A stretch of DNA of 44,908 bases from Saprospiraceae bacterium (lineage in GTDB: Bacteria > Bacteroidota > Bacteroidia > Chitinophagales > Saprospiraceae). The position numbers and the translations under genes are program-made. The notes beneath the pieces are model-generated. The model saw nothing but the letters and a program-made list of their open reading frames with translations. It was not told the origin of the DNA and did no database searches. Positions within the stretch are counted from its first letter, which is position 1, and each line of letters begins with the position of its first letter. This document shows, in pieces, positions 15,952 to 42,284 of this stretch. Location: the NCBI GenBank assembly GCA_029252685.1, contig JAQXAY010000097.1, positions 1-44,908 of the forward strand. The letters run 5' to 3'.

Positions 15952-16131
15952 ATGAAAAAGGACGATATTAAAGAAAATGAGAAGAAATCATCAGGTTTTC
16001 AAATTCGTATTAATAAATTTGGGCAGGTAGAGCTTAATCAGGAAATCGATCAGCTCAATACCTATCTGAATGATAATGTTGAAGATAAAAAGCTAGTAGG
16101 TCGTAAGGACCCATATGCTAAAAAGAAATAA
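15952..16131 (+). CDS. Small charged protein, function unknown (59 residues)
   Basis: I choose the ATG at 15952; the frame also stays open back to a TTG inside gltX. The product starts MKKDDIKENEKKSSGFQIRI and contains 'NKFGQVELNQEIDQLNTYLN', ending with the basic PYAKKK. The middle looks amphipathic and there is no signal peptide or membrane helix. It is 31 bases after gltX on the same strand, so probably cotranscribed. Codon use is ordinary and the frame has a sensible composition, which favours a real gene. I do not recognise the family; a helical nucleic-acid- or protein-binding accessory is one possibility, not shown here. Confidence 0.6.
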   Translation: MKKDDIKENEKKSSGFQIRINKFGQVELNQEIDQLNTYLNDNVEDKKLVGRKDPYAKKK

Positions 16132-16323
16132 ATCAATACTGTAAGTCACATCCTTCTATCTCACCAGATTTTCCTAGTCAAAAGTCGGCAAACGATTTTT
16201 ACTGAGGATACCATTGCAACCTAATTTGTAAAACTCGAGGCATTTAATAAGCCAAATTTTTTTTGCTTTTTGAATCCCAAACGGCATATTGGTTTTACGT
16301 TGATAATAACTTGGAAAAATTAA

Positions 16324-16345
16324 GCTTTCACTCTTTAGTGAAAGC
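16324..16345 (+). other. Hairpin in the leader of the giant adhesin gene
   Basis: GCTTTCACT (16324-16332) pairs perfectly over 9 bp with AGTGAAAGC (16337-16345) around a CTTT loop, ending 21 bases before the adhesin ATG. No T run follows on the plus strand. It might be a transcript-stabilising or regulatory leader hairpin. The rest of 16132-16366 shows no gene. Confidence 0.45.
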
Positions 16346-16366
16346 CCTTCAGACATATTTATATAC

Positions 16367-19300
16367 ATGAGTATCCGAAATCGCATTTCGTACCTTTTGT
16401 TCATACTATTGAGTATGAATTCTTATGAACTGAAAGCTCAGTTCAACATTTCCTATGCTGGCGAAACAAGTTTTTTTCTTGATGAAGATTGTAGTGCTGT
16501 ATTTAACCTAAACGGAGTGCTGCCAGTTGTGACTTCAGATATACCTGGGGCGGCAATTACAATAGACTCATTGGATGCTATTCTGACAGGTTATGAGTTT
16601 GATCAAATGATATTAGGTGAGGATCAATTTGATGTTTACTTTAGGTATGAAGACGATCAGGGAAATGACAGTTTGTTTGTATTCGAGATTAGTTTTGAAG
16701 ATACTATTGCACCTCAGTTAGAGTTAGAGGTTGATACAATATATTTGACATGCCCAGGTGAACTTCCAAGTTTAGCAATATATCTAGTTGATGATAATTG
16801 TGATGTGGCTGGGGGCGTTTCTTTGAATAATTTTCCGCTTCAGGATCTTCCAGATTATAACTGTGGACCTACTATTATAGAGGTTACTAATATGATTGTG
16901 GCAGAAGACTTTTATGGCAATAAGGATACTTTGTTTCAGACTGTTTACATGGAGCCAGATACAATAGGCCCTACTGCCATTGTTCCAAACGACACAACTA
17001 TTAACTGTGTTGATGACCTTAATGTCATCTTATCAAATGGATTGATTGATGGTTTTGATAATTGTGGATCTGATTTATCATCTGTGGATTCTTCCTTCCT
17101 GATTGTTGCTGGAGCTTGTTCTGGAGATTTTGTTTACAAACGGTTTTGGACCTTGACAGATTCGTGTGGAAATGTATCTATTGATTCCCAAATGATAACA
17201 GTGCTTGATGACTTAGCACCTGTTTTTACGGTGCCGTCTGATACGGTTGTTTCTTGTGGCGAAAATCTTGATCCATCATTTCTTGGAACACCAACTGCCC
17301 TTGTCGACGAGTGTTCAGGAATATTTGAAGTGACTTATCAAGATGTTTTTGATACCTTATCTTGCCCTAGTGAGCAGCTTTTGACAAGAATATGGTCTGT
17401 CTCAGATAGTTGCATGAATATCGCAATAGATACTCAAGAGATTCAGATTATAGATAGCATCCCGCCAGTATTTACGGGACCGCCTTCAGACAGTATATTT
17501 TTGTTATGTGACCAACTCGCTGCTTTGGATACAATCATGGGACCATCGGGAATTGTCGATGCTTGTTCTAGCTTTATGATTGACACAACAGATGTCATTA
17601 TCAATCAGAGTTGCACAAATACCTATGAAATTGAACGTACCTATTATATTGAAGATGCTTGCTCTAATGTAGACAGCGTCAGGCAAAATATATTTGTTAT
17701 TGATTCTATTCCTCCAGTGTTTACTGTCTCAGGCTCAGACTTCATTATTGCCTGTTCGTCGAATATAAATTTAGATTCACTTTTTTCAATATGGATAACT
17801 AATTATGCCGGTGCAATGGCTGTAGACGCATGTACTGCAGTTGCTGAGCTTAATTGGACTGTGTTGAACGTAGGAACAAATGATCCTGCCTTATTAGATG
17901 ATTTGTCTTGTGATTTGGGTCCTGGAATCCTCTTGAATCAATCTTTTGATTTTGTAGTAGAGGACGATTGTGGAAACCAAGATAAGTTTACCCAGAGTTT
18001 TGAAGTGATTGATACTTCTGCTCCAATAATAAGTTATTGCGGATCAGATATTAATATATCTGCAGAGGATGGCCTTTGTGGTGCAAATTTAGATATACCT
18101 GCTCCTTTTGCAATAGACAATTGTATGAGCAAAGATACTGTTGTTAATATTTCACAGACGGAGATCTTGCAAGCCTCTTCAGATAATCAAACTATTGTTT
18201 TTGGACTTGAGTTTTTGATTCCGGTTCCTAATACATCCATAAGTCCTACTAGCGATTTTTGTATGACTCTCACCTTAAACAATGTCGATGCAGAAGGCTC
18301 AGAAGAGTTTATGTATATCTATGGGGAAGATGGGGTTCAGCTTGGTATAACTTCACCTTCTGATATGCAATGTGGGGTATCTCAGACTCAATTTTCTATT
18401 CCTCTAGCCTTATTTATGGATTGGGCAGTCGATGGAATTATCCAAATCGAACTAGAACCAAATATACCGTCTTCAGGTATAGGTAATGGTATTAATCCTA
18501 TTTGTGGAGTAAGTGGTACAGCGACAATTGATTTATCATATGATGCCATTTCAAGTGACGGCTTATCTTACTTTTATGCTTTAAATGGAGGTGCTTTTGA
18601 ACCACTTGGATCTAACGGTTTAGTAAGTGAATTTCTTGATGTTGGGGTTTATAATATTACATTCAGAGTATTGGATTGTGGATCAAATTCGACGACTTGT
18701 TCAAATATAATAGAGGTTGTAGACGAGGAAGCACCTTCGCTTAGTTGTTCTTCCACGGTTGAGGTATTCTTAACGGAAGATAGTTGTCAACTTGATGTTC
18801 TGTTAACTCTTCCATCGCTCATTGAAGATAATTGTAATCCGGGCTTGTTGAATCAAATTGATTTAGCTAACCAATACTTGCCGTTCGCCCTGAACGCTAA
18901 CTTGGGCTTATCAGTAGCTGATACTGTTTGGTTCAATTTTACTGGAATTTCTTCTAACCAAGTCGGTGATGCAAATTTGCAGATAAACTTGCAGGGAGAT
19001 ATTGATCAGTCTGGAGAATACTACTCGATATTTTTTGTAGACGGGACTCTGATAGGAAACACAGAGATTGGTGGAAGTGACGTTACTTCTGGTTCTTGTT
19101 CAGAAATATCTATTATTAATTTGACATTAGATCAGGCTTTAATAGAGAGCAACGTAGTTAATGGAAATTTAGAAGTTATTTTAATTGCAAACAATCCCTT
19201 TTCACCTGGAATAGATGAAAACGGAATTAATCCGTGTGATGACTTAATTGAGTTGAACGGTGTTAAGATTGATTCGGTTTCGGGAGTGTCCGCATCATTG

Positions 19301-22300
19301 ATGTATAATACATGGGATCTTGAATATTATTTAGACGAAACTCCATTTTTAGGGACGGTTCCAATAACAGATATTTCAGCTAATTATTCAGAATTATTAG
19401 CGAAAGGTGAACATGATATATTTTTTATTGGAACTGATGCTGCTGGCAATTCAGATACGTGTTCTTACACTATCAATTTAAAGGATACTATTAGTCCTAG
19501 TATGATCTGTGTTCCTTTTACAAGCATAGACTTTAATAGTTTGGACCTAGATCCAGTGCAAATAGAAGTTAATCAACTTGATATTGGAAGTTTTGACAAT
19601 TGTGGCTTGAGTAGCCTTTTTACATCTCCAACAGAAATTGATTGTACGGATGCAAATAATGGTTCTGTGATCGTTACCCTGATCGGTATTGATGACTCAG
19701 GAAATCAATCCAGTTGTACCAGTGAACTTGTAATACAAGAAACAGCATTGAATCCTGTTTATGCAGCTATTTGTGAGGGAGATACCTTGCTTAATTTTGT
19801 AAATGTCTGTTTAAGTGATAGCTTATTCCTATTCTCAAATGTTTCGAGTTCCTTTCCTGATTTGTTGTCTTACAAATGGTATAATCCAGATAATGTTGAA
19901 ATTGCGAGTAGCTCTAATCCTGCTATTCCCATAATCAATGGGGTGGATTACAGCGGTGTTTATACGCTTGTAGTCGATGGTCCAAATTCCTGTACCAAAA
20001 CCAGCACTTTTACGGTTAGTACCTCTGATTTGCCAGAGCCAGAGATTCAAGGGTCTGTTACAGGGCTGATTTGTGCTGGTACGAATGTGGATTTAAGTAT
20101 TTCTAATTATGCTGGCATTGCTGATGCAGAATATAATTGGTATAAGGTTGACGCATTTGGACAGCAGCAAATAATAGCGACGACAAATACACCTAATTTT
20201 AATTTAGGAAATGGATTGGCTGCTGGAACTCATTGTTATGCTGTCGAGGTATTTAAGGATTGTTGTTCTGCATTTTCTTTATTGAGTTACTGTGTGGAAA
20301 TTGTCGAACAACCTGTAGCAGTACTTGATAATACAATGATTAGCATTTGTCGTTTTGATGATCTGGAATTATCTGTTTCCCAATCGAATAACCCAGATTG
20401 GGTTTATGAATGGTCCGGCCCTGGTATACCTGTTGGAACATCAGGTCAAACAGCCTTGGTAGAGGCTTATAATCCCAACATGTCAGGCCTTTTCACAATC
20501 TACCTGGAGGTATTTGATGCGATTCTGCCTTCTTGTGCGATTATACCTTTAGAAATTCAAGTCGAAGTATTGGAAAAACCGTCTACGCCTAGTTTAGCTT
20601 TGGATAGTGAGTTGGTATGTGAAGGTGCCGAAGTTACATTTACGGCGAGTGGCGATTTCACAGGGGTTACGGCATATTTTTTTATTGGAGATGAAGTTTT
20701 TGGTTCAGCTGATCCCGAATTTACTTTTATTGATATTCAATTAACAGATCAAACAGATTATCGTGTTGTTACCGCCGGAAATGGTTGTACTTCAGATACT
20801 TCAAATTTGGTGGCGCTAGATGTCATACCTATTCCTGTTTCTGAGATAATTTCAGAAGAGGAGATATGTTCTTCTGAAAGTAGTTATGACCTAGAGGCAA
20901 GTTTTCAAACAGATCTTATATATGCTTGGACCTTGCCAGGAGGTGAAATGGAAAATGGGTTTAAGTATACTATCAATAATCCAGTATCTGGTATATATTA
21001 TCTCGATGTAGATAATGGATATCCAGGTTGTCAAAGCTCCGACACCCTAATTCTAACTGTTTCTAATAATCCTGAAATTCTCTCATTAGAGAACAATGTT
21101 CCAGATTGTTATTTGGGGCCAGATTTTGTTATGGAATTGTCTTATGAATCTGATTCAGATATGCTTTTAGCCGAGCAATGGATATTTGAAGACGATCTTA
21201 TAGGCATTGATTCATTACTAAATATTAGCAACCCTGGGTCCATTAATTCGGGGAGCTACACCCTAGTTCTTCTTGATACAATTACAAATTGTTCTTCGGA
21301 TTCAATTTCTATAATCCTAGATATACCTGAAGAACTGCCGGTCTTGGATTCCCCAAGCGTGCAGGCTGATGATTATATATTTTGTGAAAACGAAGCCGTC
21401 TTGTTTCAGACGAATTCCATGTCTAATGACTCATTGTATTTTTGGATTTTTGACCAAGGTGCAGATTCTATTGAAACTATGGTGCCAGAATTGTTACTAT
21501 CAAATATCAATGATTATGATTTCGATATGATACAGGTTCAATACCTGACAGAAGATAATTGCCTTTCTGAGCTTTCAAATAGTACGATCTACGAAATATT
21601 GGTACTTCCTGAATTGGATGTAGCATATGAGTCCTCTGTTTGTGCAAATGAAAGTATCGACATAAGTGTGTTGAATTGTATAGGAATTGATGGATCAATA
21701 GACTGGGAGCTGCCAGGTAACACAGTTATTGAAGATGCTTGTCAAATTAATGATCAGCAAAGTGTAAGCAACACATATACCTATAGCTTTATGTATGAGG
21801 AATTAGGTTGTGAATCAGATATTTACAGTTTTGATATTACGGTAAATTCACTACCTACGTTAGTTGATTTGGCTACACCGTTCGATTCACTTTGTTTAGA
21901 TCTAGCCAAGCCTATTGAATTGTTCTTGGAAAATCCAGAACCTGGAGTAGACTATGCACTTATCAAGGATGGAGTTGTGTTATTTGGTTTTGATAGTATG
22001 GTTGGGCCCGCAAACTGGGAGCTTCAAAATACATTGATTCCAAGTATGAGCGAGCAATTGATAGAATTTGAAGTAGTGGGTATGTTAGGTTCTTGTGTTT
22101 CTGAGGATACTGCCTCGATAGAGGTCACCATATTTAGCCAGCCTGATAACCTAGCTTTTATAAGTATGGATACATTTAGGCTCTGTGAGAACGATGACTT
22201 TTTTGAGTTGATAGCAGATTTGCCTCCAGCTGAAATTCAGACTATTTGGTCTTCCATTGGTTCAAGTGATCCAATATTTATAAGCCCACAGGAAGCAATC

Positions 22301-23461
22301 ACTAAAGTGGACGGTCTTGACCCTAAAGTATATTATGATTTCGAATGGAGTTTAACTTATGGTGCTTGTGAAGATTACAGCCGTGATACGGCTTCACTTT
22401 ATATTGCTGTTCAAGAACAAGCATTTGTGGGTCTTGATATTGATACCTGCTTGCAAGAAAGTATTTTTGTAAGTGCTCAATCTTCGGTAAATATTCCAGC
22501 GCTTGGCTTTTGGACACAGCCATTAGGTCAGCAATCAATAGTAACTATACCAGGAAATACAAGCACTTTTATAGACTTGAATCCAAATACTCAAACTGAG
22601 TATGAGTTCTATTGGAATCTACCCGATTATGGATGTGGTGCTTCTTCAGATACTTTAAATGTTCGTCTTTTAAATGAATTTCCGATGATTGAGGATGCTG
22701 TGGTAGATGTTTGTGGTGATGGCACATTCCAATTGAATGGAATTGAACCTATAGATTACGAGGGAGTATGGAGTTCACCCGATCAAAACATTGTTTTCCA
22801 GGATGTTAATTTACACAACACTAATGTTAGTAATTTAGTGGAAGGAGCTAATGTTTTCTATTTTGAATTTTTGAATGGAGTTTGTGGATTGGACTATAGA
22901 GAAGAGTTGCTTGTAAATTATACGTTTTTACCGGAAGCTATAAATGATATTGTGGCTATCGACTTCCCTGGCACTAGTGTTTTAATTGATGTATTACTCA
23001 ATGATTTTAATTCTGATTTGGATTTTGATCAATTTACCATTGTGACGGAACCAGAGCATGGATCGATTAGTTTAGACCAGAATGCGGCTCGTTATTTTTC
23101 GGATCAAAATTATGTGGGCCTAGATTCCTTTAAATATGAATTGCAAAGTAATCTATGTGGAAGCAGCAGCATCGCAACGGTTTACATCAATATAGGTGAA
23201 AATGCGAATTGTGATTATATACCAAATATAATTACTCCAAACGAGGATGGCTTCAATGATACATTTATGATTCCATGTAATCCGAAGTATCCGGACAGTA
23301 ACGTTCAGATTTTCAATATATGGGGGGATAAGGTGTTTGAACAAACACCTTATGATAACGAATGGGATGGAGGTTCACTACCTACAGGGACTTATTACTA
23401 TGTCGTGAAGTTTTCGCCGAATACCAAAGAGCTTATAGGATTTTTACATATTCAACGTTAA
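16367..23461 (+). CDS. Giant secreted adhesin-like protein with T9SS type B (gliding motility-associated) C-terminal domain
   Basis: The product is 2364 residues with a signal peptide at residues 1-25 (ends LKAQF). The N-terminal half is a chain of HYR/Ig-like repeats with the phrase 'D(S/D)(I/L)(P/A)PVFT' and paired cysteines. Two related inserts of roughly 140-160 residues interrupt the repeats (about 595-735 and 828-990). The middle (about 1130-2180) has many Ig/PKD-like units of 80-100 residues. A cadherin-like unit follows (about 2185-2270, 'VLIDVLLNDFNSDLDFDQFT', 'VGLDSFKYEL'). The last 85 residues are the CHU_C sorting domain: 'YIPNIITPNEDGFNDTFMIP', 'VQIFNIWGDKVFEQ', 'LPTGTYYYVVKF'. 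It should be exported by T9SS and retained at the cell surface for adhesion or gliding. The ligand is unknown. The stop overlaps the next start by one base (TAATG). Confidence 0.92.
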   Translation: MSIRNRISYLLFILLSMNSYELKAQFNISYAGETSFFLDEDCSAVFNLNGVLPVVTSDIPGAAITIDSLDAILTGYEFDQMILGEDQFDVYFRYEDDQGNDSLFVFEISFEDTIAPQLELEVDTIYLTCPGELPSLAIYLVDDNCDVAGGVSLNNFPLQDLPDYNCGPTIIEVTNMIVAEDFYGNKDTLFQTVYMEPDTIGPTAIVPNDTTINCVDDLNVILSNGLIDGFDNCGSDLSSVDSSFLIVAGACSGDFVYKRFWTLTDSCGNVSIDSQMITVLDDLAPVFTVPSDTVVSCGENLDPSFLGTPTALVDECSGIFEVTYQDVFDTLSCPSEQLLTRIWSVSDSCMNIAIDTQEIQIIDSIPPVFTGPPSDSIFLLCDQLAALDTIMGPSGIVDACSSFMIDTTDVIINQSCTNTYEIERTYYIEDACSNVDSVRQNIFVIDSIPPVFTVSGSDFIIACSSNINLDSLFSIWITNYAGAMAVDACTAVAELNWTVLNVGTNDPALLDDLSCDLGPGILLNQSFDFVVEDDCGNQDKFTQSFEVIDTSAPIISYCGSDINISAEDGLCGANLDIPAPFAIDNCMSKDTVVNISQTEILQASSDNQTIVFGLEFLIPVPNTSISPTSDFCMTLTLNNVDAEGSEEFMYIYGEDGVQLGITSPSDMQCGVSQTQFSIPLALFMDWAVDGIIQIELEPNIPSSGIGNGINPICGVSGTATIDLSYDAISSDGLSYFYALNGGAFEPLGSNGLVSEFLDVGVYNITFRVLDCGSNSTTCSNIIEVVDEEAPSLSCSSTVEVFLTEDSCQLDVLLTLPSLIEDNCNPGLLNQIDLANQYLPFALNANLGLSVADTVWFNFTGISSNQVGDANLQINLQGDIDQSGEYYSIFFVDGTLIGNTEIGGSDVTSGSCSEISIINLTLDQALIESNVVNGNLEVILIANNPFSPGIDENGINPCDDLIELNGVKIDSVSGVSASLMYNTWDLEYYLDETPFLGTVPITDISANYSELLAKGEHDIFFIGTDAAGNSDTCSYTINLKDTISPSMICVPFTSIDFNSLDLDPVQIEVNQLDIGSFDNCGLSSLFTSPTEIDCTDANNGSVIVTLIGIDDSGNQSSCTSELVIQETALNPVYAAICEGDTLLNFVNVCLSDSLFLFSNVSSSFPDLLSYKWYNPDNVEIASSSNPAIPIINGVDYSGVYTLVVDGPNSCTKTSTFTVSTSDLPEPEIQGSVTGLICAGTNVDLSISNYAGIADAEYNWYKVDAFGQQQIIATTNTPNFNLGNGLAAGTHCYAVEVFKDCCSAFSLLSYCVEIVEQPVAVLDNTMISICRFDDLELSVSQSNNPDWVYEWSGPGIPVGTSGQTALVEAYNPNMSGLFTIYLEVFDAILPSCAIIPLEIQVEVLEKPSTPSLALDSELVCEGAEVTFTASGDFTGVTAYFFIGDEVFGSADPEFTFIDIQLTDQTDYRVVTAGNGCTSDTSNLVALDVIPIPVSEIISEEEICSSESSYDLEASFQTDLIYAWTLPGGEMENGFKYTINNPVSGIYYLDVDNGYPGCQSSDTLILTVSNNPEILSLENNVPDCYLGPDFVMELSYESDSDMLLAEQWIFEDDLIGIDSLLNISNPGSINSGSYTLVLLDTITNCSSDSISIILDIPEELPVLDSPSVQADDYIFCENEAVLFQTNSMSNDSLYFWIFDQGADSIETMVPELLLSNINDYDFDMIQVQYLTEDNCLSELSNSTIYEILVLPELDVAYESSVCANESIDISVLNCIGIDGSIDWELPGNTVIEDACQINDQQSVSNTYTYSFMYEELGCESDIYSFDITVNSLPTLVDLATPFDSLCLDLAKPIELFLENPEPGVDYALIKDGVVLFGFDSMVGPANWELQNTLIPSMSEQLIEFEVVGMLGSCVSEDTASIEVTIFSQPDNLAFISMDTFRLCENDDFFELIADLPPAEIQTIWSSIGSSDPIFISPQEAITKVDGLDPKVYYDFEWSLTYGACEDYSRDTASLYIAVQEQAFVGLDIDTCLQESIFVSAQSSVNIPALGFWTQPLGQQSIVTIPGNTSTFIDLNPNTQTEYEFYWNLPDYGCGASSDTLNVRLLNEFPMIEDAVVDVCGDGTFQLNGIEPIDYEGVWSSPDQNIVFQDVNLHNTNVSNLVEGANVFYFEFLNGVCGLDYREELLVNYTFLPEAINDIVAIDFPGTSVLIDVLLNDFNSDLDFDQFTIVTEPEHGSISLDQNAARYFSDQNYVGLDSFKYELQSNLCGSSSIATVYINIGENANCDYIPNIITPNEDGFNDTFMIPCNPKYPDSNVQIFNIWGDKVFEQTPYDNEWDGGSLPTGTYYYVVKFSPNTKELIGFLHIQR

Positions 23462-24423
23462 TGCTAGAACCTATGAAAAAGATACTTACAGCAGTTTTTT
23501 GTTTGATTTGCTTTGGATCCTTTGCACAGCAGGAGGTTCTAACATCAAATTTTATGATGAATAAATTGTTTTACAATCCAGGCTTTGTAGTTGAAGAAAA
23601 GTCTCCTGTCTTAGTTGCTCAGGTTCGGTCACAATGGCTGGGGGTAGACGGAGCACCTAATCTTCAGAAAGCTAGTTTTTCTATGCCTTTTTTGAATAAC
23701 AGAGTTGGTGGAGGTCTAACGATAAGTAATTTCACAGCAGGGATTACTTCGGAACAAACAGTTAGTGCTATTTATGGGTACCGATTGCGTTTTGGAAGAG
23801 GAAGTTCAATGTTGATGGGGATGAATGTGGATTTGAATTCTTATGGTGTTGACTATAGCGATGAGCGATTGAAGTTTATTCATAATATAGAGGACGACCC
23901 AAGTATTATCAATGGGTTTCAAAGTAAATTTCTTTTTAATGTAGGTTTGGGGGCCTATTTTAGTTCTGAAAAATTCTATATGGGATTCTCAATCCCTGGA
24001 ATGATAGAGGAAAACATTGAGTTTGTTCCAGAGGAGAACGGCCAAAGTATTGGCGTGAGGCATTTTTATTTTATGGGAGGTGGCGATATTGAACTAAAGA
24101 AGGGAAATATTCTACAGCCTAACCTTTTGATACGCTACGTATCGGAGTCTTACTTGAACTTGGAATTTAATCTAATGTACAATATTGAAGACAAACTTTA
24201 TTTAGGAGCGACTTATAGAAATGGAGGAATAAGCTTTGGTGTTTTTGAATCTGCTAGCGTGATCATTGGGACACATCTCTCGCCAAAAACTTTATTGGCT
24301 TTCAGTTACGACATTACTCTTAGTTCTATAAGTACCTATAGTGCAGGTTCTTTTGAGGTTATGATTAAATATCGAGCACTCAAAAAAGGAAGTAAACGCA
24401 TAGGTAATCCAAGGTATATGTAG
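23461..24423 (+). CDS. PorP/SprF-family type IX secretion membrane protein
   Basis: Starting at the ATG overlapping the adhesin stop (23461), the product is 320 residues with a signal peptide ending FGSFAQQ; the ATG at 23473 (MKKILTAVF) is an equally good start by signal-peptide form. The family blocks are 'NKLFYNPGFV', 'RSQWLGVDGAPNLQKASFSMP', 'GGGLTISNFTAGITSEQTVSA' and 'YGYRLRFGRGSSMLMGMNVD', followed by repeated amphipathic strands of a beta-barrel. SprF in Flavobacterium johnsoniae is needed to secrete the adhesin SprB, and SprF-like genes usually sit beside type B substrates. The one-base overlap points to coupled translation with the giant adhesin, its likely client. Confidence 0.92.
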   Translation: MLEPMKKILTAVFCLICFGSFAQQEVLTSNFMMNKLFYNPGFVVEEKSPVLVAQVRSQWLGVDGAPNLQKASFSMPFLNNRVGGGLTISNFTAGITSEQTVSAIYGYRLRFGRGSSMLMGMNVDLNSYGVDYSDERLKFIHNIEDDPSIINGFQSKFLFNVGLGAYFSSEKFYMGFSIPGMIEENIEFVPEENGQSIGVRHFYFMGGGDIELKKGNILQPNLLIRYVSESYLNLEFNLMYNIEDKLYLGATYRNGGISFGVFESASVIIGTHLSPKTLLAFSYDITLSSISTYSAGSFEVMIKYRALKKGSKRIGNPRYM

Positions 24424-24544
24424 ATATAATCTCTAGGTCAACAAATTTTTTTTTGTTTTTTGTATTTCAATTGTGATTTGTTGCGTTATATAAAATTATA
24501 TATAACTATATTATAGTAATCAGTGAAGTTCAAAATAAATCTTA

Positions 24545-26614
24545 ATGAAAAAAAATTTCAAAATCTATAGATTTGGGATAAGCCTAGGTATGTTGATTCT
24601 TTTGAGTGTGAATATTTACGCTCAGGAAAATAAAGTAAAATCTAAGACTTCTGAGGATAAATACGACAAACCCAGTCATTGGAATCAAGTTAAGCTTGAT
24701 AATACTGCTGCTATAAATTCTGAGCGGATAGAATTTTCTCCAGCCTTTTACAAGAACGGAATTGTATTTGTGTCTTCAAGGAAGAAATGGGGGGATGTCG
24801 ATCGATCTATTGATGAAACATTTTTTGACCTTTACTACAGTGATTTGGATGGTCTAAATCGTCCGATCGAGCCTACAAACTTCTCCAGAACAATAAATAC
24901 AGACTTGCATGAAGGCCCTTGTTCTTTCAACATTACCGGGGATGTGATGTTTTTTACACGAAATAATTATAAGGACGGAAAACAGTATACAGATACTTCT
25001 GGAAAAGTTGGTACTAAGATATATAGAGCGAGAAAGGGCGAGTACGATTGGGAGAATATTGAAGAATTGGCATTTAATTCAGATGAATATTCCTGTCAGC
25101 ATCCAAGTTTATCTTCAGACGGTAAACGCTTATATTTTTCTTCAAATATGCCAGGAGGTAAAGGAGGTTACGATCTGTATTTTGTCGAATGGACAAGAAA
25201 TGGTTGGTCGTCTCCTGTAAATCTTGGACCAGAGGTCAACACAAAATTCAACGAAGCTTTTCCTTTTACCCATGATTCTGGCTTTCTTTTTTATGCATCG
25301 GATAATAAAAAAAGTATGGGAGGGTTGGACAATTTCATGGTCGATCTCGAAAGCGAGGATAGTTGGAAATCTATTGCCCTAGGAACGCCATTCAATTCTT
25401 CAATGGATGATTTTGGAATGCTCATTAGTGAGGAGGGAGATTTTGGGTTCTTTACCTCGAATAGAAGTGAAAGTATGGGCAAGGATGACATTTACAGTTT
25501 TTCTTTTGAAGGCGGTATACCGTTTATCAAAGAAAAAGTGGAGGTTCCATCTGTGGTGCTAGTGTTTGATGTTGAAGATAAATCTTTTATCAACAATGCC
25601 GAGATACGATCCTTTTTGTTGAAATCAGATGGGGGATTTGAGGATGCAGCAGTCTACGAGGTTGCTCTTGATAATTCTGCAGACGAAAAACTTAATTTCG
25701 AGCTACTCAAAAAGGAGCTTTTTTCTGTGGGAGAACCTGATGAATTCACAGGAAAAGATGGAAAAGCATATTTACCCTTGGTGCAAAGTAAAGATTATAT
25801 TATAAGTGTAATGGCGGAAGGATATGATCCTGTCGAAATACCTATAGAGGACTTGTTTGTTCGTAAGAATGTCCAACGGGAGATCGTTGTTCCAATGAAA
25901 AAGACAGATTGCTTATCTGTTGCAGCTTATGTAAAGGATAAGCAAAGTGGACGGGTCCTTGAGGGTATACAAGTTGAAGTGACGGATGAAACAGAACGCA
26001 AGAAGAAAATAGTATACTCTGATGCCGAGGGAAGGGTAGAATTGTGTCTTAAAAAATTATATAAGTATAGTTTGAAAACACTTGCTGCAGATTATAATAC
26101 AGCTGAGATGTCATTGGCTCCCTTGAGTTCAGAGGAATCTGATATCGCAAAGCTGGATATCCTTTTTGAGTTGGAAAAGTCTAATAATGAATTGCTTACA
26201 GAGTCCCTTAAAGAAGGGGTTACTATTGTACTTGAGAATATCTATTACGATTTTGATAAGTCTGCAATTCGCACAGGTGATGCCCTTGAGCTAGATGCTC
26301 TAGCTACTATTTTAAAAGCATATCCTAGTATAGAAATCGATCTAATTGCTCATACGGATTCGAGGGGGAAGAAGGATTATAATCTCTTTCTTTCAGAGGA
26401 ACGAGCTGTTTCGGCAAAGAATTATCTCATTGCTAAAGGGATTCAAGATAATAGGGTGCGAGCAATAGGTAAGGGGGAGGAAGTACTTAGGAATTCATGT
26501 TTTGATGGAGTCAAGTGTACAGATCTCGAACACCAATATAATCGTAGAACGGAAGTAATTATTCGGAAAATGGATGAAGAGTCTTCTCTCCGATTTGTAA
26601 AAAAGAATCAATAG
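24545..26614 (+). CDS. OmpA-family protein with PD40 propeller repeats
   Basis: The product is 689 residues. A signal peptide (residues 1-27, ends NIYAQE) is followed by WD40-like PD40 repeats (about 55-330; 'HPSLSSDGKRLYFSSNMPGG', 'GGYDLYFVEW', 'NEAFPFTHDSGFLFYASDN', 'DDIYSFSF'). Two regulatory-like beta domains follow (about 335-455 and 460-550). The C-terminal OmpA domain (about 565-680) contains 'NIYYDFDKSAIRTGDALELD', 'IDLIAHTDSRG' and 'NRRTEVIIR', the peptidoglycan-binding signature. The layout is that of PorE-like T9SS/gliding proteins without the N-terminal TPR. There is no lipobox. It probably anchors the neighbouring SprF-like barrel to the wall. A 121-base AT-rich gap separates it from that gene. 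Confidence 0.92.
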   Translation: MKKNFKIYRFGISLGMLILLSVNIYAQENKVKSKTSEDKYDKPSHWNQVKLDNTAAINSERIEFSPAFYKNGIVFVSSRKKWGDVDRSIDETFFDLYYSDLDGLNRPIEPTNFSRTINTDLHEGPCSFNITGDVMFFTRNNYKDGKQYTDTSGKVGTKIYRARKGEYDWENIEELAFNSDEYSCQHPSLSSDGKRLYFSSNMPGGKGGYDLYFVEWTRNGWSSPVNLGPEVNTKFNEAFPFTHDSGFLFYASDNKKSMGGLDNFMVDLESEDSWKSIALGTPFNSSMDDFGMLISEEGDFGFFTSNRSESMGKDDIYSFSFEGGIPFIKEKVEVPSVVLVFDVEDKSFINNAEIRSFLLKSDGGFEDAAVYEVALDNSADEKLNFELLKKELFSVGEPDEFTGKDGKAYLPLVQSKDYIISVMAEGYDPVEIPIEDLFVRKNVQREIVVPMKKTDCLSVAAYVKDKQSGRVLEGIQVEVTDETERKKKIVYSDAEGRVELCLKKLYKYSLKTLAADYNTAEMSLAPLSSEESDIAKLDILFELEKSNNELLTESLKEGVTIVLENIYYDFDKSAIRTGDALELDALATILKAYPSIEIDLIAHTDSRGKKDYNLFLSEERAVSAKNYLIAKGIQDNRVRAIGKGEEVLRNSCFDGVKCTDLEHQYNRRTEVIIRKMDEESSLRFVKKNQ

Positions 26615-26670
26615 GGCAAGTTTTTTTTAAATCTGTTTAGTCAATTACAATGTTATTTGAATTTATAAGA

Positions 26671-26678
26671 TAATTTTG
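26671..26678 (+). promoter_or_regulatory. -7 box before the small type B protein gene
   Basis: TAATTTTG fits TAnnTTTG and lies 31 bases before the ATG at 26710, in the 95-base gap after the OmpA-type gene. This suggests the last gene of the cluster has its own promoter. Confidence 0.5.
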
Positions 26679-26709
26679 CAGATAGTACAATCAAAAGACT
26701 TGACACACT

Positions 26710-27561
26710 ATGAGTTACCTGATTTGCCGATTTTTGAAAATCGGAACTGTCCTTGCAGTATTATTCTTTAATGTTACCGATTTAAAATCTATAAATCTGG
26801 TAAACAACTATAGCATGAGTTTAGATACTACTGAGGTTGATTCCCTGTTGTTTCTTTGTGACGACACACTTATAATTTTCGGTGAAACATTTTCAGAACC
26901 TGGCATCTATGAAGTCTTTCAAGAGGGTCCTGCCGATATGGATACCTTGTATATTCTAGAGTTGGTTGAGTCGAGTTTAGGTGGGTATTTGGTAAGCCCA
27001 TCAGACACAACTGTTTGTTTTGGTGAATCTATTGACTGTGTTTTATTGGATTCAGGTGGAGATACGCTAAGTTCTGCAAGTTCAATAAATTGGTATGAAT
27101 CGTCTTGGTTTGATTGTGATACCTGTTTTGCGACTAGTTTTCAAGGCTTGGATACAATGGAATATTCGGTTGATTTTTTGGATGCAAATGGTTGTTTACA
27201 AAGCCTTTCAGGTACCTATGTTTCAGAACGAGATTCAGATTGTTTTTTAGATCGTGTTTCTGTTCCTAATGCTTTTAGGCCGAATAGTGTTGTAGATGAT
27301 GCCAATAAAACGTTTGGGCCTATTTATTTTAAGAGTGCCCAGAAGTTAGAAAGAATGAGCATTTATAATCGTTGGGGTGAGCTTGTATTTGAGACAGGAT
27401 TTGCAGATACTGATCGTGGAGTTTGGGACGGAAATATAAACCTAAGGAACGGAGGGATTGCTCCTGCTCCTATGGATGTTTATTATTACGATTTAGTTGT
27501 GTTTTGTCCCTCAGTAAATAAGAACCGAGCATTTAGGGGCGAGTTAATGTTAATTCGATAA
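26710..27561 (+). CDS. Small secreted protein with T9SS type B C-terminal domain
   Basis: The product is 283 residues. A signal peptide (residues 1-27, ending TDLKS) precedes a short acidic region with scattered cysteines (CDDTL, CFGESIDCVLL, CDTC). The last 95 residues are a CHU_C/gliding motility-associated domain: 'VSVPNAFRPNSVVDD', 'RMSIYNRWGELVFETGF', 'MDVYYYDLVVF', 'FRGELMLIR'. It lacks the long repeat region of the 2364-residue protein, so it is almost only a sorting domain with a small head. It might be a co-secreted subunit or share the neighbouring SprF-like barrel. Its transcript ends at a strong terminator directly after the stop codon. Confidence 0.88.
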   Translation: MSYLICRFLKIGTVLAVLFFNVTDLKSINLVNNYSMSLDTTEVDSLLFLCDDTLIIFGETFSEPGIYEVFQEGPADMDTLYILELVESSLGGYLVSPSDTTVCFGESIDCVLLDSGGDTLSSASSINWYESSWFDCDTCFATSFQGLDTMEYSVDFLDANGCLQSLSGTYVSERDSDCFLDRVSVPNAFRPNSVVDDANKTFGPIYFKSAQKLERMSIYNRWGELVFETGFADTDRGVWDGNINLRNGGIAPAPMDVYYYDLVVFCPSVNKNRAFRGELMLIR

Positions 27562-27594
27562 AAAAAAGGGGCAAACTAATTTGCCCCTTTTTTT
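27561..27594. terminator. Bidirectional terminator between adhesin cluster and gldD
   Basis: An A run plus GGGGCAAA (27568-27575) pairs with TTTGCCCC (27580-27587) plus a T run around a CTAA loop. It serves both the plus-strand type B gene and the converging gldD, whose stop begins at 27594. Confidence 0.93.
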
Positions 27595-39868: not shown

Positions 39869-40582
39869 ATGCTAAATCGTCTATTTGTAGTTTTTGGGCT
39901 TCTTGTTTTTTGGGCTTCTTGTTCCAATAATTCCGGTATAAATTATCAAGGTCAAGAAAATTACTATTTGCCTATTGATCAGCTAAAGCATTCAGATCTT
40001 TTGATGGAATATAGATATTTAGAGACTGGAGATGCTCCTTTTTATTGGTTGTATAACCTTGATATTAGTGACGAAACAGCGGTTTTACTGCAAGGACAGC
40101 AATTGGATGTGTATGGTGAACTATTGGCAGAGACTCAAGAACTACTAGTAGAAAACGGGGTGGTGTTGAAATCTCAAAATATTATAGAGCGCGACACTCA
40201 GCAATTAGAATGGGTTAAAACGGAGTTTGACATATTGTCAGATGACCTTTTCTTGTTTGGTGATTGGGATACTTCCTCTAAGGTTTCTAGCAAAATTTCT
40301 TTTGCATCGAAGATTTACCAAGGGCAAAAGACTACGATAAGTAAAGATCGTCAGTTCCTTGGTGACACAACGATTATTTTTCAGGATAAAAGCTATGCTG
40401 CAAAACAAATTTCTGTAAACGAATGGTATGATATTGAAGAGGTAGGTCATTTGGAATTTGGGGTGCAAGGCATAGAGGTTTATGCTTTGGGTCTAGGTTT
40501 AGTTTATGTAAAAAAGTTTACAGAATCAGGACAACGTATTGAATACTACTTACATAAGTGCGAGATTGTAGATAATGAGTAA
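39869..40582 (+). CDS. Lipoprotein, function unknown
   Basis: The product is 237 residues with a short signal peptide and lipobox (WASC, Cys18). The mature part starts 'SNNSGINYQGQENYYLPIDQ' and is beta-strand rich, without a domain I recognise. A tandem DNA duplication with a one-base shift encodes the hydrophobic core and lipobox. The last eight bases overlap the start of the next gene, which encodes a type B T9SS protein, so the two are translated together. A chaperone or anchor role for that protein is possible but not shown. Confidence 0.85.
   Translation: MLNRLFVVFGLLVFWASCSNNSGINYQGQENYYLPIDQLKHSDLLMEYRYLETGDAPFYWLYNLDISDETAVLLQGQQLDVYGELLAETQELLVENGVVLKSQNIIERDTQQLEWVKTEFDILSDDLFLFGDWDTSSKVSSKISFASKIYQGQKTTISKDRQFLGDTTIIFQDKSYAAKQISVNEWYDIEEVGHLEFGVQGIEVYALGLGLVYVKKFTESGQRIEYYLHKCEIVDNE
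39890..39920 (+). repeat. Imperfect tandem repeat in the signal peptide coding region
   Basis: GTTTTTGGGCTTCTT (39890-39904) is followed directly by the same unit with one extra T (39905-39920). The added base shifts the frame, so the first copy encodes VFGLL and the second VFWAS, followed by the lipidated Cys. Confidence 0.85.
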
Positions 40583-42284
40583 GTACAATTTTTTAATTTT
40601 TGGTTTATTGGGCTGGGGCATATGTTGTGCTCAAGATCCTGTCGATATAAAATGTTTCGCAGAAGATGTGTTGTATTGGGAAAATGCAGACAACATGCCT
40701 TGTGTATTCGTTGAGCATGAAATATTTTATTCTTCAGATATCGACGGACCCTATCAAAGTGCTGGTCTAGTAACTGATCCTACTCAGGAATTTTTTGATT
40801 TTATCAATCTTCCTCTGGGGGAGGTGTTTTTCTATTTGGCATCTACTTATGATTGTGGGATAAGTACTGTTCTTGATTCCGATACTATAAGTTCACTGCC
40901 ACCTGATTTGGTAGAGATTAGTTTCTTAGATGTAAATGAATTTGGAATTTCGATAAACTGGAATGACCTTTTGAATGATATAAATGACCACGGCTATGTA
41001 ATCTATCGATCTACTCCAAGTGGTGTCAACCCTATAGCTACAGTATATAATGCAAATGAATATTTTGATACTAGCATAGCTCCTGTTACTCAAGCTGAAT
41101 CATACTATGTTTTAGCCTTAGATGATTGTGGAAATCTGTCGATATTTGATACACCACAATCATCTATGTTTTTAAAGGCTGATTTTAATTATTGCATTAA
41201 CACATTCAATCTAAGTTGGTATTTGATGGAGGATGCTGAAGCTGTGCTTGATTCATTAAAATTAAATGTTGTACATGAGAGTGGGTTTTCAGATTTGATT
41301 TCTATAGACTTAGTATCAGGTGGTATTCCTTATGAGGTTTTAAATGGATCAGGAGAATATTGTTTTGAATTATTTGCCTACTATCCTTCTGGAGACATTG
41401 CCACTTCTAATGAAATTTGTGAGTTTATAATTGTTTCTCCTCAGTTAGAATCTTATCAGATTTTAAATGTTTCTGTGTCGGAAAACTCAACTATAGTTGA
41501 TTGGTTAATATTTGATGAACAGGCTTTGGTGCAATCAGAGCTCGTAGGCTATGATAATTTAGGGAATGGATTAGTATCTACAGGTTTATCACCTTACTCT
41601 ATTGGAGACAATTGGTATACGGAGGATGTGGGAATTTCGGCTGGTTTAGTTTTTTATGAGATGAACTTTAGAAACACCTGTGACTCTATGTTTCGAACCG
41701 AGCTCTTTAGTAATCTCTATTTAGAGATGGAGCCTACAGGTACAGATATGCTACTATTTAATTGGGATAATTCGTATCCGAATTATGTTACTCCAGAAGA
41801 ATATTTACTTTATAAAGTCACTTTAGATGGTGATGTTTTAATAGGTACTTTTGATTCAATGACTTCTTCTGCAGTATATGAATTGGATTCTGACGATATT
41901 CGATCTTCTGGACTTGAGTTTGAGGTTCGAAGAACTTCAAAGGTCGAGACCAGTTCTTTTGGCCAAATTGAGATAGTGTCAGTATCAAATAGGGTGGAAT
42001 ATACACCAAGACTTAGAATAGTTCTTCCAAACGCATTAAGTCCAAGTGGCAAAAATAATGAGTTTAAACCTGTATTGGTTAGCGGGGTGGTTGAATCTTA
42101 TATTATGGAGATATATGATCGCTACGGTAAGAAGCTTTTCGAATCCACTGAATTTTCAGAAGGCTGGAAAGGTAAGAGAGGGTTAGATTATTTCCCATCG
42201 GGATCATACCAATATGCTATAAAGGTCTGTGATGTACAAGGTGTTGAATATGAGTATGCTGGATTGGTTGCGCTGGTAAGGTAG
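40575..42284 (+). CDS. Secreted protein with T9SS type B C-terminal domain
   Basis: The product is 569 residues. A signal peptide (residues 1-19, ending GICCAQ) is followed by several fibronectin/Ig-like segments ('GISINWNDLLNDINDHGYVI', 'SYYVLALDDCGNLSIFDTP', 'FEVRRTSKV'). The last 90 residues are a CHU_C domain: 'RIVLPNALSPSGKNNEFKPV', 'YIMEIYDRYGKKLFE', 'FPSGSYQYAIKV', 'YAGLVALVR'. It should cross the outer membrane by T9SS. Unlike the giant adhesin it has no SprF-type neighbour; its partner is the lipoprotein encoded just upstream with an 8-base overlap. Confidence 0.9.
   Translation: MSKYNFLIFGLLGWGICCAQDPVDIKCFAEDVLYWENADNMPCVFVEHEIFYSSDIDGPYQSAGLVTDPTQEFFDFINLPLGEVFFYLASTYDCGISTVLDSDTISSLPPDLVEISFLDVNEFGISINWNDLLNDINDHGYVIYRSTPSGVNPIATVYNANEYFDTSIAPVTQAESYYVLALDDCGNLSIFDTPQSSMFLKADFNYCINTFNLSWYLMEDAEAVLDSLKLNVVHESGFSDLISIDLVSGGIPYEVLNGSGEYCFELFAYYPSGDIATSNEICEFIIVSPQLESYQILNVSVSENSTIVDWLIFDEQALVQSELVGYDNLGNGLVSTGLSPYSIGDNWYTEDVGISAGLVFYEMNFRNTCDSMFRTELFSNLYLEMEPTGTDMLLFNWDNSYPNYVTPEEYLLYKVTLDGDVLIGTFDSMTSSAVYELDSDDIRSSGLEFEVRRTSKVETSSFGQIEIVSVSNRVEYTPRLRIVLPNALSPSGKNNEFKPVLVSGVVESYIMEIYDRYGKKLFESTEFSEGWKGKRGLDYFPSGSYQYAIKVCDVQGVEYEYAGLVALVR

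Follow-up and report, generated by a model that had tools for sequence, protein, structure and literature searches.

How are the giant adhesins of the T9SS sorted between a moving track and the cell wall? The locus described here lies in a 44,908-nucleotide stretch of DNA of a Saprospiraceae bacterium (the window; in a draft of 297 contigs and 3.44 Mb it is contig C164), and it makes this question directly testable, as the carrier barrel that it encodes ends in a mutable tail of five residues. The initial annotation had read four neighboring genes as one unit, in which a giant type B protein has a dedicated barrel, an OmpA protein would tie that barrel to peptidoglycan and a small type B protein could join the complex. 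We find that the four genes are real and that only the adhesin, the barrel and the OmpA/PD40 gene belong together. We propose, with a probability of about 0.72, that these three encode one T9SS type B display module, in which the adhesin would be exported through SprA, captured by the barrel, docked on the OmpA/PD40 protein and attached to the wall.

The locus and its genes

On the + strand, behind gltX, lie genes for a protein of 2364 aa, for a PorP/SprF barrel, for an OmpA/PD40 protein and for a protein of 283 aa; gldD and gldE lie 3' of the small gene, convergent with it. All four reading frames were confirmed on this strand (16367-23461, 2364 aa; the barrel, ending at 24423; 24545-26614, 689 aa; 26710-27561, 283 aa), and Pfam bore out their identities as CHU_C, PorP_SprF, OmpA with PD40 and CHU_C, in gene order. 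SprA of the same genome scores 2067 bits, indicating that a T9SS is present, and gldK, gldL, gldM and gldN are found in contig C229 behind another barrel. The features of the locus are:

16367..23461, +, giant type B T9SS adhesin, 2364 aa (Pfam and GhpA comparison)
23219..23449, +, CHU_C type B sorting domain of the adhesin, barrel-linked class (profile scores)
23473..24423, +, PorP/SprF carrier barrel, 316 aa, 14 predicted strands (Pfam/NCBIfam and structure model)
24406..24420, +, tail motif NPRYM (family consensus NPRFF), free, without cysteine (alignment)
24545..26614, +, OmpA/PD40 protein, 689 aa, with PD40 propeller repeats, CarboxypepD_reg and OmpA domain (Pfam)
26243..26485, +, predicted OmpA peptidoglycan-binding domain (Pfam)
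26671..26678, +, TAATTTTG, candidate Bacteroidota-type -7 element 5' of the small gene; TAnnTTTG in G001 and G002
26710..27561, +, small type B protein, 283 aa, genus-restricted (Pfam and relatives)
27259..27558, +, CHU_C sorting domain of the small protein, orphan class (Pfam and profile scores)
27568..27587, no strand assigned, hairpin GGGGCAAA-CTAA-TTTGCCCC with A and T runs on its flanks, likely a bidirectional terminator between the small gene and gldD

The N-terminal half of the adhesin consists of HYR/HYR_4C repeats and the C-terminal half of Ig_7/Big_9 domains similar to those of GhpA, followed by the sorting domain, which matches CHU_C (E 3e-22, 79 bits, cut-off 27) and TIGR04131 (44.5 bits, cut-off 35). 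Between gltX and the adhesin gene there is a 59-aa ORF (15952-16131), the last codons of which are kept in the sister species G001, and an 11-pair hairpin is located at 16322-16347, about 20-45 nt 5' of the adhesin ATG; at the equivalent position G001 carries a hairpin of different letters.

The barrel matches both PorP_SprF (PF11751; E 1.1e-55, 189.5 bits) and TIGR03519 (210.8 bits). The adhesin and barrel genes had been described as coupled by a 1-base overlap, which depends on an ATG at 23461 that is absent in G001. Because the barrel of G001 starts at the equivalent of 23473 (MKKI...), leaving a gap of 11 nt after the adhesin, the barrel of the window probably starts at 23473 as well; coupling by an overlap that is not kept in the sister species is doubtful and probably not real. 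The structure model of the barrel displays 14 strands, a FadL/PorV-like fold and an unstructured free C-terminal tail. Foldseek matched this model to 8gl6_F and 6h3i_F, both of T9SS complexes, with TM scores of 0.61 and 0.60, several FadL entries ranking above them; chain F of these two entries is presumably PorV.

The 689-aa protein combines the propeller, carboxypeptidase-regulatory and OmpA domains by which we judged PorE membership, OmpA (E 1.3e-13) and PD40 (E 8.8e-10) being over the cut-off and CarboxypepD_reg (30.3 bits) just under its cut-off of 32.3. The OmpA domain carries the peptidoglycan-type motifs TDSRG and LSEERA, and D and R motifs of this type occur together in 96 of the 116 OmpA-like proteins. 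An AT-rich block 5' of the OmpA gene is conserved in the window's own genome and G001.

Conservation of the gene order

The barrel served as query in 119 relatives and in a scan of named genomes, where most of the relatives carry the label Saprospiraceae or that of one of its genera. Among the best 80 of 477 named loci, 73 have an adhesin upstream of the barrel and 62 an OmpA gene downstream of it, while in 17 the adhesin is directly preceded by gltX (62 and 17 are hand counts). Since our two genome sets overlap in part (G031:C19 and the L146 contig have the same gene order), barrels were de-duplicated by sequence; leaving out rows shorter than 250 or longer than 430 aa (181 to 180) gave a FastTree of 180 barrels, in which a clade of 167 holds the window barrel. 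Within this clade the adhesin is upstream in 150/167, the OmpA gene downstream in 129/167 (3 and 7, respectively, cut by the locus end) and both are present in 120/167. Across our surveys, barrels cut at the locus end and loci with no called barrel gene (L182, L308, L369, L372) were left out of the counts. Thus the gene neighborhood expected by the initial annotation is conserved as a triad of adhesin, barrel and OmpA gene, and not as a quartet with the small CHU_C gene. The triad looks like a conserved Saprospiraceae kit that exports a giant sticky surface fiber and ties it to the wall. Triads of this kind are already published for Flavobacterium and Porphyromonas, and the window locus is therefore a further member of that kind.

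Sorting-domain classes

We compared sorting domains by class profiles built from 81 barrel-linked domains, with the window's genus left out, and from 31 unlinked domains of the own genome. All 69 held-out module domains (loci L201-L280) were positive for the linked class, and so were the C-terminal domain (CTD) of the window adhesin (+48.7 bits, its genus being absent from the training set), that of GhpA (+51.2 bits) and those of all four adhesins located upstream of the fused barrels described below. The CTD of the small protein (-38.7 bits) and that of its ortholog in G002 (-31.0 bits) fall in the unlinked class. Upon leave-one-out, 31 of 32 unlinked domains were negative; the exception, on contig C102 (+32.6), was excluded from the final unlinked profile. 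As a C26 domain that is linked to its own barrel scores -51.6, in the unlinked class, the classes mark the lineage of the window barrel rather than linkage as such.

The C102 domain (G000:C102:1056-1295, L061), which is of the linked class and has no linked barrel, shares 53.7% identity with the sorting domain of the window adhesin, and to judge from this sequence the window barrel may also have the C102 adhesin as a client. If the proposed module is correct, carriers become predictable for clients encoded elsewhere, this unlinked, class-matching adhesin being an example. The own genome has 36 CHU_C matches versus 13 barrels, with a barrel directly 3' of only 3 of the 36, and given these numbers most of its type B proteins must share carriers.

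Fused barrels and the published triads

In six loci of six genomes (L281-L284, L286, L288) a single ORF comprises the barrel, an acidic-repeat linker and an OmpA domain. An adhesin ORF ends directly upstream in four of the six, L282 being cut at its start and L288 having no called gene upstream. Pfam detected PorP_SprF and OmpA in 3/3 fusions scanned and TSP_3 in two. Four fused barrels are found in G017 and G030, one of which (L352) is at the same place as L284. These fusions are the best sequence evidence that the barrel and a peptidoglycan-binding domain act as one unit and, positioned behind adhesin genes, they point to wall anchoring as supporting evidence. We recognized no paper on fusions of SprF with OmpA, which does not prove that none exists. 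In another bacterial family (f25), barrels also occur within much longer frames, of 559-738 aa and reaching 1489 aa, with no OmpA match (L361, L363, L365, L367; G182:C1:2576270; G292:C1:981793).

According to the available text of PMC9143113, the PorP barrel of the Porphyromonas gingivalis PorE-PorP-PG1035 complex connects a surface protein of type B with an OmpA/propeller protein that binds peptidoglycan. A barrel gene between genes for the same two kinds of protein is what we read in the window. PorE is described in the same text as a TPR-containing lipoprotein; in the window protein we saw no lipobox in the signal region, no cysteine among residues 1-40 and no TPR match in Pfam, and it scores below the cut-offs of the NCBIfam PorE model (272.9 bits, cut-off 600) and of the CHU_0125 model (322.5 bits, cut-off 620). 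The loci of Flavobacterium johnsoniae are also instructive, as far as the accessible part of PMC12618676 describes them: the static adhesin Fjoh_3952 has a PorE-like neighbor, and wall anchoring was proposed for it, whereas the mobile adhesins have none. Fjoh_3952-3951-3950 comprises the same three gene kinds, with the shuttle gene directly downstream of the adhesin (PMC12618676, same part). It belongs to another lineage and is likened to the window by gene kind and not by sequence, the window kind being a giant HYR-Ig adhesin that is often beside gltX.

We propose that the adhesin, the barrel and the OmpA/PD40 protein would be exported by Sec, and that the adhesin would then cross the SprA translocon, to be taken up via its CTD by its own PorV-like barrel, which would remain bound to it as an outer-membrane anchor. 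On its periplasmic side the barrel would dock the OmpA/PD40 protein, probably by means of the NPR-aromatic-aromatic tail, and the OmpA domain of that protein would bind peptidoglycan; the fiber would therefore be held at the wall instead of being dragged along a gliding track. The sequence shows which genes are present and their synteny, the class of the sorting domain, the predicted fold of the barrel, the conservation of its tail and the fusions; passage through SprA, capture, docking, wall binding, contact between the tail and the OmpA protein, static behavior and adhesion are what we infer. The claim of a dedicated barrel tied by OmpA to peptidoglycan is thus supported by family-wide synteny, the sorting-domain classes, the PorV/FadL-like fold, the barrel-OmpA fusions and the biochemistry of PorE-PorP-PG1035 as given in the available text of PMC9143113. 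Compared with the published triads, the placement of GhpA, the conserved cysteine-free tail and the barrel-OmpA fusions appear to be new.

The C-terminal tail of the barrels

P313 and R314 of the tail are invariant in 20/20 aligned barrels. An R-aromatic-aromatic tail ends 141/167 barrels of the clade and 22/27 readable barrels (28 loci, counted from a printout) from further families of the class; as the tailed barrels are relatives of one another, these counts are not independent. To counter query bias, we collected the PorP_SprF barrels of six genomes (72 matches, 70 loci read, 67 barrels counted), leaving out two weak PF11751 matches and dropping cut or uncalled barrels. Tails were classified by cysteine first, such that CPR[FL] tails (n=3) and tails of mixed type (L359, L334) were counted as Cys. 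In the f25 family (four genomes) an OmpA gene follows 16/17 R-aromatic tails vs 0/13 others (Fisher P 1.2e-7, the paralogs not being independent), eight of these 13 tails carrying cysteines. The link is much weaker in the family of the window, where, among 50 barrels from three genomes (four of them fused), an OmpA gene follows 7/10 R-aromatic tails vs 10/36 other non-fused tails (P 0.025), and all 10 non-R-aromatic tails with OmpA downstream carry a cysteine. A strict rule by which a cysteine tail means no OmpA neighbor fails in this family, as 10/24 such barrels, in the own genome, G017 and G030, have one.

SprF, as the available portion of PMC12635249 reports, has a Cys-Xaa-Cys tail that is disulfide-bonded to GldK, both tail cysteines being needed for gliding. 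Tentatively, the tail could be read as an address label: a Pro-Arg-aromatic-aromatic tail would lead to an OmpA/PD40 wall anchor (static) and a cysteine tail to the GldK track (mobile), while in some lineages fusion to the anchor would replace the label. The window and the grappling-hook loci would then be in the static branch, and as part of the same tentative reading the hook of Aureispira would thus be exported and held by the products of the two genes behind ghpA. That the tail itself is the docking element for the OmpA/PD40 protein is likewise conceivable from the sequence counts, at somewhat less than even odds.

Alternatively, the tail may act in assembling the barrel, at the translocon or on the GldK/PorK track, the OmpA protein meeting the barrel elsewhere or never. 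In its favor, 22/167 clade barrels have the tail and an adhesin and no adjacent OmpA gene, 8/167 have both neighbors and no tail, and barrels directly before GldK end similarly in two relatives (YNPRF in L358, YNPRDL in L370). Yet the 16/17 vs 0/13 split in the four f25 genomes speaks against such a role, and so does the absence of the tail from all six fused sequences, as a barrel already joined to its OmpA domain needs no tail. Hence we regard this explanation as rather unlikely and keep docking as the working role of the tail.

In the own genome, 8/12 other barrels have a cysteine in their last 14 residues, often as CP-x-aromatic/Leu (L084, L086, L089-L092 and others), possibly a single-cysteine version of the SprF tail.

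Likeness to GhpA

The window adhesin is similar to GhpA of Aureispira sp. CCB-QB1 (PDB 9flp and others) with E 5.7e-144, in 14 stretches, all of which fall within adhesin residues 1079-2364; residues 1-1078 have no match in GhpA. Residues 1991-2364 score 88.9 bits against GhpA and the CTD 52.6 bits. The one control, another giant type B adhesin of the own genome, gave no whole-protein match to GhpA at 0.01, and its CTD scored 27.3 bits; the C-terminal similarity of the window adhesin thus exceeds that of a generic type B adhesin, as judged by this single control. An Aureispira contig (L184), which the barrel scan recovered, codes for GhpA residues 3375-5898 (5554 bits); 62 bp further on lies the gene of a barrel with an NPRFF end, and behind it that of a PD40-CarboxypepD_reg-OmpA protein. 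Accordingly the two loci share a CTD of the same class, a similar C-terminal Ig region and the same pair of genes behind the adhesin; they differ in adhesin length (5898 vs 2364 aa) and in their N-terminal halves, and the window adhesin is known here from sequence. The specific similarity to GhpA and the triad arrangement at ghpA are, as far as sequence comparison goes, probably new; we recognized no paper on the anchor in the literature on GhpA with T9SS or Saprospiraceae, and such absence is not proven. If the proposed module holds, the export carrier and the anchor of the grappling hooks would be named.

Could the window fiber itself be a grappling hook for predation, an ortholog of GhpA? 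The E value of 5.7e-144 and the shared gene arrangement speak for it, but the N-terminal 1078 residues are HYR-type and without a GhpA match, and the barrel of the GhpA locus belongs to a sister subclade of the window barrel (FastTree). In addition, the T6SS sheath gene (VipB) was not found in the own genome, which is 95.85% complete, and this speaks against ixotrophy as described for Aureispira (available text of PMC11205867). A predation hook proper is therefore improbable. As the barrels fall in sister subclades and HYR-type matches, some below Pfam cut-offs, were detected in the N-terminal half of all seven window-type adhesins scanned, we consider the window and GhpA loci to be sibling modules and not orthologs.

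Gliding as an unlikely alternative

Like SprB-SprF, the cluster pairs a giant adhesin of type B with a barrel of its own, and gldD and gldE lie next to it. Other type B adhesins travel on tracks (PMC12618676, accessible part), and the adhesin might by analogy be a gliding adhesin moved by an SprF-type carrier. In contrast to SprF, both tail cysteines of which gliding requires (PMC12635249, available portion), the window barrel has no cysteine near its C-terminus, and the OmpA/PD40 gene behind it has no counterpart at sprB-sprF, as far as the available text of PMC9143113 describes that locus. With such a tail, a mobile gliding adhesin is very unlikely, and we retain the wall-anchored display module.

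The fourth gene

The small protein had been characterized as almost only a sorting domain. This description does not hold, as within the 283 residues a signal peptide is followed by a small beta domain (about 42-87), then by an Ig-like domain (about 94-172), and the CTD takes up roughly 100 aa. CHU_C is matched above its cut-off (E 3.2e-7, 30.8 bits), and the score against NCBIfam type B model TIGR04131 (23.7 bits) is below the cut-off of 35. Its structure model (pTM 0.46) retrieved by Foldseek generic Ig-like proteins and nothing specific. Close relatives are found only in G001 (51% over 101 aa, cut at the contig end) and G002 (49%), the remaining best matches being mostly C-terminal parts of giant proteins. 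In the own genome the CTD closest to that of the small protein is an orphan of contig C266 (50.0%).

The initial annotation regarded this protein as a cap, competitor or second subunit of the barrel's complex, and its adjacency in the own genome and, as far as contigs extend, in two genus relatives, together with the speculation that PG1035 caps PorP (available text of PMC9143113), would favor such a role, which we consider scarcely credible and have set aside because its sorting domain is of the orphan class in both the window and G002 (a class score not being a binding test) and because no small CHU_C gene was seen behind the OmpA gene in the other-genus loci examined. At one of those loci (L094) the gene next after OmpA codes for a type B protein of 2119 aa. 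The adjacency is thus confined to the genus, and the 283-aa protein is probably an independent, genus-specific surface protein outside the triad, which by its CTD probably uses a carrier other than the window barrel.

A promoter of its own, as initially suggested for the small gene, is plausible: TAnnTTTG, which we take to be the Bacteroidota -7 element, lies 28-31 nt 5' of the small-gene ATG in 3/3 genus members (distances by eye), although a sigma-70 scan was no better than shuffled sequence (45 matches vs 46.2 in shuffles). The window encodes a third type B protein of 569 aa (40575-42284), beside secA and with a sensor kinase downstream, from 42785 onward. Between the small gene and gldD, G002 carries a terminator-like hairpin of different letters, having the same form and place as the hairpin of the window.
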